A stretch of DNA of 64,000 nt from positions 1 to 64,000 of the forward strand of contig VGWJ01000004.1 of NCBI GenBank assembly GCA_016873635.1. Direction: 5' to 3'. The stretch is from Lentisphaerota bacterium (GTDB taxonomy: Bacteria > Verrucomicrobiota > Kiritimatiellia > UBA8416 > VGWJ01). The notes beneath the pieces are model-generated. The model did no database searches. It was not told the origin of the DNA and was given only the letters and a program-made list of their open reading frames with translations. Within the stretch, counting starts at the first letter, position 1, and every line of letters begins with the position of its first letter. A program made the translations under genes and the position numbers. Of this stretch, positions 11,116-15,216 are shown in pieces.

Positions 11116-13455
11116 ATGCAAACACCCGCTGTGTCTTCGCCCGTTCGCCTGCTGTATCGGACTCACGCCTGGGAGTGGAATCATGCCCTGCCGCTCGGCA
11201 ACGGCCGCCTCGGCGCCATGGTCTTCGGCCGCGTGGCGCGCGAGGCGATCCAGGTCAACGAGGAATCCCTGTGGGAAGGCCGGCGTTTCGACCGGTGCAA
11301 TCCGCGGGCCAGGCAGGAGTTGCCGCGGATACGCGAGCTGCTCTTCGCCGGCCGGAATGCCGAGGCCTACGCGCTGGCGGAGCAAGCGCTGCTTTCGCCC
11401 GAGCGCAACATCGATTCCTACCAGAGCGCTGGCGAGCTGGTGATCGACTGGGCCGGCGGCAAGGTCCGCCCCAGCCACGAGATGGGGTTCTTCAACCCCA
11501 AGCCCGGCGGCCCGTGGTGGGAAGTCGTCTATGCCGTCCACGACTACGAGCGCGACCTCGACCTCTCCACCGGCATCGCCACCACGCGGTTCAACTGCCG
11601 CAACGTCCGGCAGCGGCGGGAGCACTTCTGCTCGAAGCCGGATGATCTGATTTGCACGCGCATCGTCTTCGACCCCGGCAAGGGCGATGTGGATCTGAAC
11701 CTGCAGCGCGCACAGGACGTGCGCTCGCGCGAAGCCTCGTCGGACGGCCGCCTGCTGCTGACCGGCCGCCTGACGCGCGGCGGCATGCGCTTTGCGATGC
11801 TTCTGCACGCCCGCGCGACCGGCGGGACGCTCGCCGCCGACGAGGACTGCCTGCGCGTGCGCGGCGCCGACGCCGTGGAGCTGCGGCTGGCGGCCGCGAC
11901 CTCCTACGTGGCGCCCGGCGATCTGTCGGCCGATCCCGTGGCGAAGTGCCGCGCCGCGATGGCCGCCGCCGCGGGCAAGAGCTGGGAGCGCCTGCGCGCC
12001 GATCACGTCGCGGCGCACCGCCGGCTCTTCGAGCGCGTCAGGCTCGAACTGCCCGCCTCGCCCGGCGACGAGCTGCCGACCGACGAGCGCCTCGACCGCG
12101 TGAAGAATGGCGCGGAAGACCCCGGCCTGGAGGCGCTCTACTTTCACTACGGACGCTACCTGCTCATGAGCTGCAGCCGCCCCGGCTCGCTGCCGGCCAA
12201 CCTGCAGGGCGTGTGGTGTCAGCACATGGCGGCCCCGTGGGACAGCGACTATCACACCAACATCAACATGCAGATGAACTACTGGCCCGCGGGTCCGGCG
12301 AACCTGATCGAATGCCAGGAGCCGCTGTTCCGCTGGATGAGCCTGATCGAACCGGCGGGCCGCGAGGCCGCCCGCAAGCTGTACGACTGCGGCGGCTGGG
12401 TGGCGCACCACGTCTGCGACGTTCACGGCTGCGTGGAGCCGATGGACGGCGCGTGCGGCATCTGGCCGATGGGCGCGATCTGGCTGGCGACGCACTGCAT
12501 GGAACACTACCGTTTCAGCGGCGACCGGCGGCTGCTGGCGGAGCGCCTCTGGCCGCTGATGCGCGGCGCGGTCGCCTTCGCCTGCGACTTCCTGATCGAA
12601 GCGCCGGCCGGCTCCGCCTGCCCCGGCCGGCTGGTCACCAGCCCCAGCCATTCGCCGGAGAACGTGTTCGTCGCGGCCGACGGCTCGCACAGCATGTTCA
12701 CCTACGGGGCCACCATGGACCTGTCGCTCATCGCGCAGCTCGTCGACGACTGCCGGGAGGCCATGGATCTGCTGGGAATCGACGATCCCGCCTTCGCGGC
12801 GCGGCTGCGCGACGTCAAGGCGCGGCTGGCGCCGGTCGTGGTCAGCCCGCGGCTGGGCATCGTGCAGGAATGGATCGAGGACTACGAGGAGTGCGAGCCG
12901 GGACACCGGCACATCTCGTCGCTCATCGGCCTTCAGCCGCTGGCGCAGATCACGCGGGGGCGGACGCCGGAGCTGTTCGCCGCGGCGCGCGCCACGGTGG
13001 ACCGGCGTCTGGCGCACGGCGGCGGGCACACGGGCTGGAGCAAGGCGTGGCTGATCAACTTCCTGGCGCGGCTCGGCGACGGCGCCGCGGCCCGCGCGCA
13101 CATCCTGGGCCTGCTGCGCGAGAAAACGCTCCGGAACCTGTTCGACGACCATCCGCCGTTTCAGATCGACGGCAACTTCGGCGCCACGGCCGGCATGGCG
13201 GAGATGCTTCTGCAGAGCCACGACAGCGTCATCGACCTGCTCCCGGCTTTGCCGCCGGGATGGCCCCATGGAGCGGTGAAGGGCTTGCGCGCCCGCGGCG
13301 GCGTGACCGTGGATCTGACCTGGCGGGACGGCCGGCTGACCGCGGCCTGCCTGACCGCCGATCGCCCCGGCGCGTACCGCGTGCGTCTGCCGGGCGGCGC
13401 CATCCGGGAAATCGAACTGAAAGCGTCCGAGCGCACGCCCCTGCAGACGAGTTGA
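11116..13455 (+). CDS. Alpha-L-fucosidase, family GH95
   Basis: 779 aa, the expected size for GH95. N-terminal beta domain: HALPLGNGRLGAMVFG and IQVNEESLWEG. The (alpha/alpha)6 barrel has LPANLQGVWC, the paired Asn residues of TNINMQMNYWPA, TSPSHSPEN with the conserved Glu, and PFQIDGNFGATAGMAEML with the conserved Asp. GH95 enzymes invert alpha-1,2-linked fucose (some act on alpha-L-galactose). No signal peptide is evident. It stands alone on the plus strand, away from the GH29 gene, and ends 13 bp from a Sel1 relic reading towards it. Together with GH29 it points to fucosylated glycan use. Confidence 0.93.
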   Translation: MQTPAVSSPVRLLYRTHAWEWNHALPLGNGRLGAMVFGRVAREAIQVNEESLWEGRRFDRCNPRARQELPRIRELLFAGRNAEAYALAEQALLSPERNIDSYQSAGELVIDWAGGKVRPSHEMGFFNPKPGGPWWEVVYAVHDYERDLDLSTGIATTRFNCRNVRQRREHFCSKPDDLICTRIVFDPGKGDVDLNLQRAQDVRSREASSDGRLLLTGRLTRGGMRFAMLLHARATGGTLAADEDCLRVRGADAVELRLAAATSYVAPGDLSADPVAKCRAAMAAAAGKSWERLRADHVAAHRRLFERVRLELPASPGDELPTDERLDRVKNGAEDPGLEALYFHYGRYLLMSCSRPGSLPANLQGVWCQHMAAPWDSDYHTNINMQMNYWPAGPANLIECQEPLFRWMSLIEPAGREAARKLYDCGGWVAHHVCDVHGCVEPMDGACGIWPMGAIWLATHCMEHYRFSGDRRLLAERLWPLMRGAVAFACDFLIEAPAGSACPGRLVTSPSHSPENVFVAADGSHSMFTYGATMDLSLIAQLVDDCREAMDLLGIDDPAFAARLRDVKARLAPVVVSPRLGIVQEWIEDYEECEPGHRHISSLIGLQPLAQITRGRTPELFAAARATVDRRLAHGGGHTGWSKAWLINFLARLGDGAAARAHILGLLREKTLRNLFDDHPPFQIDGNFGATAGMAEMLLQSHDSVIDLLPALPPGWPHGAVKGLRARGGVTVDLTWRDGRLTAACLTADRPGAYRVRLPGGAIREIELKASERTPLQTS

Positions 13456-13468
13456 AGGCCGCGGCCGT

Positions 13469-13552
13469 TCAGTCCGCCGCCCCCATTTCCCGCAGCGCGT
13501 CCGCGGCGGGCTCACAGCCCTGCGCGGCCGCCTTGCGGTACCACGGCTCTCC
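13469..13552 (-). pseudogene. C-terminal relic of a Sel1-repeat protein
   Basis: The minus strand reads GEPWYRKAAAQG followed by 15 more residues to a stop at 13471..13469. WYRKAAxQG is the hallmark of Sel1-like tetratricopeptide repeats. The frame is cut exactly where the inverted repeat of the RAYT element begins at 13553. No continuation of the protein was recognised beyond the element at 14649. It is the tail of a gene lost on or before insertion. Confidence 0.6.
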
Positions 13553-14648
13553 AGGGTCAGACCGAGAAAATAGAAATTACCCTTCAGCCAGTTTCTTCCG
13601 CAGCCGCGTCAGTTGGCGGCGCAGGGCTTCGTCGCCGGCCATCAGTTCCCTGAGCTTCGCGCGCTGCTTGCCCACTGCCCCGTTGCCCTTGTAGCCGAAG
13701 CTCCGGCCGACCTCCCGCTGACTCTTGCCGCAGAGCCGGCAACACAGCTCGATGGCGATCATCTTCGCCACCCCGGCGCGCCGCCCGTGCCTCCGCAGTT
13801 CCTGCACGTCCGCACCCAGTTCGCCGGCGACCGTCTGTGTGACCACGTCCATGTCCGGCTCCCGCTCCAGCGGCCAGGCGATATCGCCGTACGCGCCTTT
13901 GTTCAGCCTCACCTCCCGCAGCTCCCCATGGACCTGCGCCCGGAATTCCCCGTCGCCGATCGCGTAGCAGCTCGCACCCATCGCCTCCTTCAGTACGGGG
14001 TCTTCGCCGTCGACCATCGACTCCACGTAGGCCCGGTAGGCGATCCTCGACCGTCCCGGCGTACTCCGATCCATCAGACGCAGCCAGCGGTAGTTGACAA
14101 TCTCTTCAATTCTCTTGCCGTCGACATAGCCGCCGTAGCTGCTCCAGGGGTAGTCGTTGAGACAGGCAGTCTTCTCGCTCGCACTTGCCGCCTCCATGCG
14201 CTTGATCCTGACCGGGTTGAGGTGGATGTAGCGGCTTACGCGCAAAATGTACTCATCGCCCCCGACCAGCTTCGCCCCGTAGCGCCCCTGAAAACAGTGC
14301 CCGGGCCGATTACGCTTGTAGCGACGGTACATGCCGTAGGCCGTATTGAGCCGTTGCATGAACCGATGGATATTGCCCAGCGGCGTCTCGACCAGCAGGT
14401 GTCCGTGGTTCGGCAGCAGACAGTAGGCGTACAGCACGACTTCGTCGCGCTCCAGCGCCGACGTCAGTTGCTCCATGAAACGCCGGTAGTCGCTCTGCGC
14501 GTGGTAGATCGTCTGCCGCGCGTTGCCACGCACGGTCACATGGTACTTCGCCCCCGGGAAACGAATCCTCCATGGCCTCGGCATCCGCCCAACGTCCCAC
14601 CGCGCCGTCCCAGCGTCAAGCTATTTTCTATTTTCTCGGTCTGACCCT
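13553..14648. mobile_element. RAYT (REP-associated tyrosine transposase) element with 24-bp inverted repeats
   Basis: The element is bounded by a perfect 24-bp inverted repeat (13553-13576 and 14625-14648). Each outer end begins AGGGTCAGACC read inward, which itself contains the small hairpin GGTC-A-GACC. The single gene inside is an HUH Y1 transposase. RAYT genes are normally flanked by inverted REP sequences, which fits. Just outside the right end TGAGTGTTT is repeated twice (14647-14669). Confidence 0.8.
13577..14584 (-). CDS. REP-associated tyrosine transposase (HUH/Y1 family)
   Basis: 335 aa. MPRPWRIRFPGAKYHVTVRG is the standard start of Y1_Tnp RAYT proteins. The HUH metal-binding motif is NHGHLLVE (about residues 60-67) and the catalytic Tyr lies in TAYGMYRRYKRN about 30 residues later. 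WSSYGGY and YIHLNPVR are family motifs. The last 100 residues carry a DnaA/TrpR-like helix-turn-helix (KSQREVGRSFGY). It nicks and rejoins single-stranded REP DNA. Its stop codon abuts the left inverted repeat. The frame is intact. Confidence 0.9.
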   Translation of the reverse strand: MPRPWRIRFPGAKYHVTVRGNARQTIYHAQSDYRRFMEQLTSALERDEVVLYAYCLLPNHGHLLVETPLGNIHRFMQRLNTAYGMYRRYKRNRPGHCFQGRYGAKLVGGDEYILRVSRYIHLNPVRIKRMEAASASEKTACLNDYPWSSYGGYVDGKRIEEIVNYRWLRLMDRSTPGRSRIAYRAYVESMVDGEDPVLKEAMGASCYAIGDGEFRAQVHGELREVRLNKGAYGDIAWPLEREPDMDVVTQTVAGELGADVQELRRHGRRAGVAKMIAIELCCRLCGKSQREVGRSFGYKGNGAVGKQRAKLRELMAGDEALRRQLTRLRKKLAEG

Positions 14649-14754
14649 GAGTGTTTCTGACTGAGTGTTTATTTGGCTTGTCACGCCGGGGAACCGCGTT
14701 ACACTTTGGCGCAGGGGAGGACGGATTGCGTCCCTCCCCGGAAAGGAGGGCGCC

Positions 14755-15216
14755 ATGCCTGTCCAGAATCTCAGAGCCTTTCTCGACGGCAACGGTGTGA
14801 AGTACGTGGTCATCAGCCACTCGAAGGCCTACACGGCGCAGGAGATCGCCGCCAGCGCCGAAGTGCCGGGGAAAGAGCTGGCCAAGACCGTAATGGTCAA
14901 GGCCGACGGCCGGATGGCCATGGCCGTGCTCCCGGCCTCCCGCCAGGTCGACTTCGACCGGCTGGCGCGGGGCATCGGCGTCAAGCGGGCCGAACTGGCT
15001 CAGGAGAAGGAATTCACGGACCTGTTCCCAGGCTGTGAACCCGGCGCCATGCCCCCGTTCGGGAACCTGTACGGCGTGGACGTGTACGTGGAGACCGAAC
15101 TGACACGCGATGCGCAGATCGCCTTCAATGCCGGTTCGCATACGGAGCTGGTCAAGCTCGCCTACGGCGACTTTGCGCGGCTGGTCAAGCCGCGGGTGCT
15201 CGATTTTGCCCGCTGA
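14755..15216 (+). CDS. YbaK/prolyl-tRNA-editing-domain deacylase
   Basis: 153 aa, a single YbaK/EbsC fold. MPVQNLRAFLDGNGVKY, HSKAYTAQEIAASAEVPGKELAKTV and MPPFGNLYGVDVYVE followed by FNAGSHTELVKL are characteristic; the Lys in ELAKTVMVK is the conserved catalytic-site lysine. Such proteins hydrolyse mischarged aminoacyl-tRNA (Cys- or Ala-tRNAPro) in the cytoplasm; some lineages use the fold for other substrates. AAAGGAGG is 6 bases upstream. A BCAM0308-family gene follows 32 bp downstream. Confidence 0.85.
   Translation: MPVQNLRAFLDGNGVKYVVISHSKAYTAQEIAASAEVPGKELAKTVMVKADGRMAMAVLPASRQVDFDRLARGIGVKRAELAQEKEFTDLFPGCEPGAMPPFGNLYGVDVYVETELTRDAQIAFNAGSHTELVKLAYGDFARLVKPRVLDFAR

Follow-up and report, generated by a model that had tools for sequence, protein, structure and literature searches.

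Anatomy of the element

The window, a 64,000-nucleotide stretch of a Lentisphaerota bacterium contig, contains at 13552-14649 an element of ~1.1 kb in which a single gene, encoding a 335-aa HUH/Y1 transposase, is bracketed by perfect 25-bp inverted ends (TIRs). The inverted arms (13552-13579 and 14622-14649) are 28 nt each and 96% complementary, and the outermost 25 nt of both, CAGGGTCAGACCGAGAAAATAGAAA, pair perfectly. The TIR adjoining the 3' end of the gene occupies 13552-13576 on the plus strand, with its tip AGGGTCAGACC at 13553-13563; the TIR adjoining the 5' end occupies 14625-14649 on the minus strand, with its tip at 14638-14648. The tips (family form GGGGTCAGNCC) are the likely recognition sites. 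The transposase ORF (13577-14584, minus strand), a TIRYT gene by the assignment given below, is intact, and 0 nt separate its stop codon from the left arm. An earlier, sequence-only reading of this DNA had described exact 24-bp inverted ends and an intact HUH transposase whose stop codon touches the left end; both descriptions hold, the pairing being perfect over the outer 25 nt.

Left of the element lies a gene for a GH95-family glycoside hydrolase, identified by a domain match (11116-13455, plus strand). The right flank of the element is the region upstream of a gene for a YbaK-like aminoacyl-tRNA editing domain protein (14755-15216, plus strand; start codon picked by eye; tRNA_edit E 9.5e-30 for 14752-15216). 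No Rfam match reached its gathering score between 12500 and 16500.

The same anatomy recurs among relatives. TIRs scoring at least 14 were found at 64 of 78 loci and TIRs scoring at least 17 at 58 of 78, after 13 of 91 loci with too short a flank had been excluded; in the null of swapped pairs the 95% point is 13 and the 99% point 16, and 6 of the 64 loci, with scores of 14-16, fall within the latter. In 46 of 64 relatives, the 3' TIR is contiguous with the end of the gene or overlaps it.

A Y1 transposase with a DnaA-like C-terminus

The protein matches the Y1_Tnp profile (E 1.2e-12) and also NF047646, REP_Tyr_transpos, at 56.9 bits, under the cut-off of 80 for that model. A sequence search of the PDB gave no match for the transposase. 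Its AlphaFold2 model (pLDDT 88.6) has TnpAREP (4er8) as top PDB fold match, with a TM of 0.76 by target length, followed in rank by the IS608 and ISDra2 transposases.

The HUH motif is formed by H60-G61-H62 (14399-14407, minus strand), and H60 and H62 are invariant in 30 of 30 aligned proteins. Three further residues are invariant in all 30: Y112, Y119 (14228-14230, minus strand) and N123, which lies four residues past Y119. Y119 is the probable catalytic tyrosine, assigned by its spacing, which is that of E. coli TnpAREP, where Y115 (PMC8266576) and N119 (PMC6006769) have been named.

The C-terminal part of the protein (residues 246-299; 13688-13849, minus strand) is predicted to form a helix-turn-helix like that of DnaA domain IV. 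It matches Bac_DnaA_C with an E of 0.00095 and 19.6 bits, under the cut-off of 31.5, and a Foldseek search with the AlphaFold2 model as query matched DnaA domain IV (1j1v) with a TM of 0.87 by target length (E 1.8e-3). Bac_DnaA_C is detected at E <= 0.01 in 12 of 30 family members.

Copies, derivatives and mobility

The genome assembly that we searched comprises 3.24 Mb in 145 contigs and is 92% complete. It holds one full copy of the window element, two further full relatives with 37-38% identity, and one fragment; a scan of genome contigs returned one relative, and phage records gave a single weak match. The 24-mer core of the end, with at most three mismatches, occurs at 8 sites genome-wide (reversed control, 0). 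Solo copies of the end, anticipated in the earlier reading, do occur: six end copies beyond the element's own two lie at five other places. Four are one-ended remnants, on contigs C6, C9, C33 and C89, that retain 32-82 bp of the element, and C19 carries a pair of ends spanning 344 bp with an interior unlike the element. A repeat, CTTTGTCGCGAGCTTTGTC, lies inside this pair (L012 ~1687-1799) and is also seen on C37 and on C1, beside a AGGGTCAGNCCTGAATGGCGCC-like end (L012, L016, L019).

The exact 11-nt tip is present at 13 sites in the genome. On C13, two tips placed back to back form a 34-bp perfect palindrome; the C130 copy sits in an apparently unrelated coding sequence, and the C37 copy belongs to a different repeat. 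With up to one mismatch the tip alone is weaker evidence, as 57 sites compare with 37 in the reversed control. At two other loci (L117 and L087), each TIR is itself a palindromic dimer with its tips back to back, resembling the C13 palindrome.

Both full relatives have derivatives of their own. The end of the C2 relative occurs at 4 sites and that of the C1 relative at 16; the latter include three MITEs of 148 bp that belong to the C1 TIRYT family (C22:173-320, C33:31519-31666 and C66:100-247; L173-L175). Several C1-family MITE sites are near contig ends, and the true copy number may be higher.

Two copies of a related element in genome G042 are 95.5% identical across 1018 bp, precisely from TIR to TIR, and their flanks are dissimilar; whole elements therefore transpose. 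No target-site duplication beyond chance was found in 64 elements, in which the matches between flanks were no longer than in swapped pairs, as is expected for Y1 chemistry. The earlier reading had also taken the long exact ends as a sign of recent activity. This finds no support in the copy itself, which is unique in its genome, and some support in the sister family, where one site exists in two array versions (see below).

Assignment to the TIRYT family

The element is a complete TIRtron carrying a TIRYT gene, which encodes an HUH/Y1 nuclease with a predicted DnaA-like DNA-binding domain, and probably falls in TnpAREP subclass 2.1. We use this label because of the TIRs, the AGGGTCAG tip, the DnaA-like C-terminus and the lack of GTAG, which is absent from both strands of the 25-bp ends. 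TIRYTs and TIRtrons were named by Di Nocera et al. 2013 (PMC3733652) for RAYT-like genes flanked by TIRs; many of these TIRs have GGGGWSAS in common, and in some of the genomes TIR repeats form families of moderate size. Quentin et al. 2018 (PMC6006769) placed 20 of these 26 TIRYTs in subclass 2.1, whose members have a Bac_DnaA_C or HTH (HTH_23 / HTH_28) C-terminus and no REP-like sequences found near the gene; 291 of 292 RAYT group 1 sequences of Bertels et al. 2017 map to the same subclass, according to that study. The window element shares with this family the Y1/HUH domain, the Bac_DnaA_C-type C-terminus, the flanking TIRs and the modest families of solo TIRs. It differs in its tip: AGGGTCAG departs by one base from GGGGWSAS, agreeing at 7 of 8 positions, and G occupies the first tip place in 88 of 115 related ends. 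The element thus belongs to a known but little-studied family, into which it fits except for this tip.

The earlier reading had instead seen a REP-type RAYT, of the kind that usually stays single-copy and drives the spread of REPs. Such an immobile element would share the enzyme fold of 4er8 and would, like this one, have further copies of its end sequence in the genome; as in REPtrons (GTAG REPs; E. coli 4ER8), the gene lies between inverted palindromic repeats. We nevertheless consider this identification extremely improbable and reject it on anatomy and copy number. The ends are long TIRs without GTAG, the protein has the extra DnaA-like C-terminal domain, whole units move in one relative, and the 8 end copies (at most three mismatches, 92% complete assembly) contrast with the more than 100 that are usual for REPs (PMC2817692).

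The IS200/IS605 elements IS608 and ISDra2 resemble the window element in the Y1 fold and in the absence of target-site duplications. Their ends are distinct left and right subterminal hairpins, whereas the TIRs of the window element are symmetric and perfect.

Genes cut short at the ends

The minus-strand frame entering the left flank from 13552 reads GEPWYRKAAAQGCEPAADALREMGAAD followed by a stop codon, and forms a 27-aa Sel1-like 3' tail (13469-13552, minus strand), recognized by a motif scan and by its alignment score. Its alignment to a Sel1 gene of contig C58 scores 44, against a maximum of 43 in 500 shuffles; Pfam gave no match for the tail, which is too short. That the Sel1-like sequence stops at the element edge, as previously described, is confirmed by this frame.

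A clean insertion that split a Sel1 gene, as the earlier reading proposed, would explain why the frame terminates at the edge. It would also leave the rest of the gene beyond the other end, and there we find the upstream region of the YbaK-like gene; scanning the window with a simple Sel1 motif gave the tail as sole match and nothing past the element's other end. Moreover, three other end copies abut cut genes, namely an alpha-2-macroglobulin gene of which a bMG10 tail remains (C6), a gene for an FGE-sulfatase domain protein (C89) and a BrnT-like gene (C19), which fits deletions that start at the ends. Clean insertion is accordingly quite improbable. A coding sequence that we take to be wecB-like keeps its final residues in genome G028; in G023, a related element stands in their place. 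The simplest common account of the cut genes is deletion extending outward from the ends, and the Sel1 tail would then be the scar of such a deletion from the TIR. On C6 (L008 ~1481-1760), the end of a carB-like gene (identified by eye) and the 3' tail of the alpha-2-macroglobulin gene flank a 32-bp TIR remnant, an arrangement that a large deletion ending in the TIR would leave.

A search of 18 genomes with concatenated flanks gave no clean empty site. The sole useful match was the site of element L039 in G028, where homology in the left flank extends to ~10 nt before the element and the right flank shows none; the others were self matches, paralogous matches and a weaker pair in G094 and G270. 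Direct copies of one flanking sequence, 84% alike over 734 bp, stand on both sides of the element at one locus (L093, G400:C130).

Repeat arrays outside the ends

Directly outside many ends, the flank is built of short tandem units. In 33 of 115 related ends it contains copies of a local tag of ~8 nt together with a truncated piece of the TIR tip, and in 82 of 115 the tag + prefix test detected no array. Three of the 33 (L065, L069 and L081) look like chance. When tags were swapped between ends, the mean number of positive ends was 1.26 and the maximum 5 (200 swaps, skipping pairs in which either end had no tip); with valid pairs only, the mean was 1.10 and the maximum 5 (300 swaps). For the tag, boundary and composition counts, 13 of 128 ends were set aside because they have no GGG[TA] tip.

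A tandem score gives the same picture for 127 junctions, one of the 128 ends being left out. A score of at least 12 was reached at 29 of 127 outer junctions and at 4 of 127 on the inner mirror side, and all four of the latter are extra TIR copies. Ordinary flank windows reached it in 3 of 640 cases, one of which is itself a TIR array, and shuffled flanks in 0 of 1920. Swapping whole flanks between ends gave 5%, a figure inflated by the similarity of tips between elements.

Where an array has several units, they have the tag in common and differ in their TIR part. On C1 of the window's genome, TGACCTTC appears six times, followed by short and long TIR pieces, and C19 has a clean array in which a 24-nt unit, made of flank plus tip, occurs twice. 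Outside its 5' end, the window element has a repeat of this kind with a period of 14 (14647-14670, minus strand): CTGAGTGTTT lies at 14647-14656 and 14661-14670, and the CTGA between the two copies is the TIR tip minus two G. Among 200000 shuffled flanks, 18 contained an exact copy of this 10-mer. The repeat beside the window element is imperfect, having a 2-nt gap, and lies under the thresholds of the automatic tests.

The possibility that the tag travels with the element had been suggested by the 148-bp MITE family, in which five 5' ends have (A/G)GGGTCTC or a near variant directly outside the tip. It was rejected, the flanks being different in the G042 pair and in the other copies of the window family.

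A near-constant outer and a variable inner boundary

The outer boundary of the arrays is sharp and lies ~8 nt outside the G-run, and the inner boundary is variable. In 24 ends with a good repeat, aligned on the first base past the G-run, identity is 0.96-1.00 over positions -4 to -11 and falls to 0.79 at -12, 0.62 at -13 and 0.42 at -14. These ends were selected on -4 to -9, and the plateau is there by construction; the drop past -11 is not. For 25 unselected nearest tip-hexamer pairs, counted from the start of the G-run, identity is 0.96 at -7, 0.84 at -8 and 0.56 at -9, and a looser seed (35 ends) shows a similar, shallower fall. Over the 115 ends, bias in flank composition begins only at about -11 and continues inward. 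The left lengths of the repeats range from 9 to 18 and are mostly 11-14. No shared dinucleotide was seen by eye at the outer boundary. Unit starts are inexact: by hand count, the spacing between the TIR piece and the 8-nt tag that follows is 0-4 nt at 47 of 61 junctions and larger at 14. The inner boundary ranges from 0 nt up to 63 nt or beyond, 63 nt being as far as the scan reached.

The best explanation of this pattern, and probably the right one, is an autonomous TIRtron whose transposase cuts ~8 nt outside its ends and re-joins them after limited re-copying. The transposase would nick single-stranded DNA ~8 nt 5' of the G-run, the tyrosine holding the 5' end and a 3'-OH being left that points into the TIR. 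Extension of this 3'-OH back across the tag and some way into the TIR would sometimes precede the re-joining of the tyrosine-held end, and would then add one unit of tag plus TIR prefix; iteration of cut, copy and re-joining would produce the arrays. The cut, the re-copying and the role of the enzyme are inferred from the boundary pattern. TnpAREP enzymes are known to form a Tyr-5'P link, to leave a free 3'-OH, and to cut at C|T or C|A beside REPs (PMC8266576).

An alternative that does without re-copying has the enzyme cut at two places, one ~8 nt beyond the tip and the other within it, near GGGTC|A, with unequal joining of sister strands. By hand count, the inner boundary is at GGGTC, GGGTCA or GGGTCAG in 19 of 61 junctions, a clustering that this alternative predicts, and GGGTC|A is a CA step of the kind that a related TnpAREP cuts (PMC8266576). 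Yet the other 42 of 61 junctions end elsewhere, from 0 nt to past the TIR, and variable extension is the simpler account of them; we therefore regard two cuts as unlikely. Slightly less likely still is replication slippage without any transposase, in which a polymerase stalls in the hairpin-forming TIR and restarts upstream. The tips are indeed short palindromes and the inner ends cluster in the tip, but the restart would have to fall ~8 nt outside the tip in unrelated flanks, with no homology visible by eye between the stalled end and the restart point, and the inner mirror side, extra TIR copies aside, is without such units.

Tandem repeats that include flanking sequence are known from REPIN clusters (PMC3116915) and have been described for REP clusters (Di Nocera et al. 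2013, PMC3733652). There, whole REPINs or REPs are repeated with their flanks, whereas the units described here consist of an ~8-nt tag and a variable, often very short TIR prefix. A general process of repeat expansion, as in REPIN clusters (PMC3116915), could contribute to the arrays beside cutting and re-copying by the transposase.

Arrays in other phyla and possible change in place

Outside the window's phylum, tag + prefix arrays were detected at 5 of 9 plasmid TIRYT loci (6 of 15 testable ends, with tips chosen by hand), in Pseudomonas aeruginosa, Legionella adelaidensis, Skermanella rosea, S. mucosa and Acetoanaerobium noterae; none was found at L136, L155, L156 and L158. The set comprised ten records, the tenth of which, a second strain of one plasmid, was left out. 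The two Skermanella loci share their gene neighbourhood, and there are therefore at most four independent plasmid cases. As these arrays are in plasmid records and not in metagenome bins, they argue against an assembly artefact. At the Skermanella loci (L154 and L157) an array is present without a clear 3' TIR, and both the tag and the number of units differ. A MazE/PemK pair lies beside the TIRYT in both Skermanella plasmids.

In the window's genome, the starts of contigs C5 and C66 (L176 and L175) overlap at one MITE site, with 101 identical nt on one side and 99 on the other, and one version is longer by 70 nt of array whose units start with the same tag. We read the two versions as two alleles in the sampled population, apparently strain variants, because the overlap lengths resemble two branches of an assembly bubble. 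This suggests that an array can change in either direction with the element in place; the short version could derive from the long one through recombination between repeats. MITE array sites such as this one seem to break assembly.

Implications

The spread of REP-like repeats by TnpAREP-type enzymes has been called poorly understood (PMC8266576), and the available portions of PMC3733652 and PMC6006769 contain no TIRYT biochemistry. Nor do they describe arrays of tag plus truncated TIR with a fixed outer boundary, a structure that was not found in the available portions of the open-licence literature searched.

TIRYT arrays stand, in our estimate, an even chance of being a readable record of enzyme action, in which repeated nicking, limited re-synthesis and re-joining take place while the element stays where it is. 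If true, this would make a transposase one origin of the short tandem repeats of bacterial genomes, with arrays seen in Proteobacteria and Firmicutes as well as in the phylum of the window. It would also make the cutting site of the TIRYT enzyme family readable from sequence alone, the arrays predicting both the position of the cut and a by-product that can be traced in ordinary genome data. The arrays also suggest how an autonomous element could give rise to MITEs, minimal palindromes and flank repeats, each of which occurs in this one genome.
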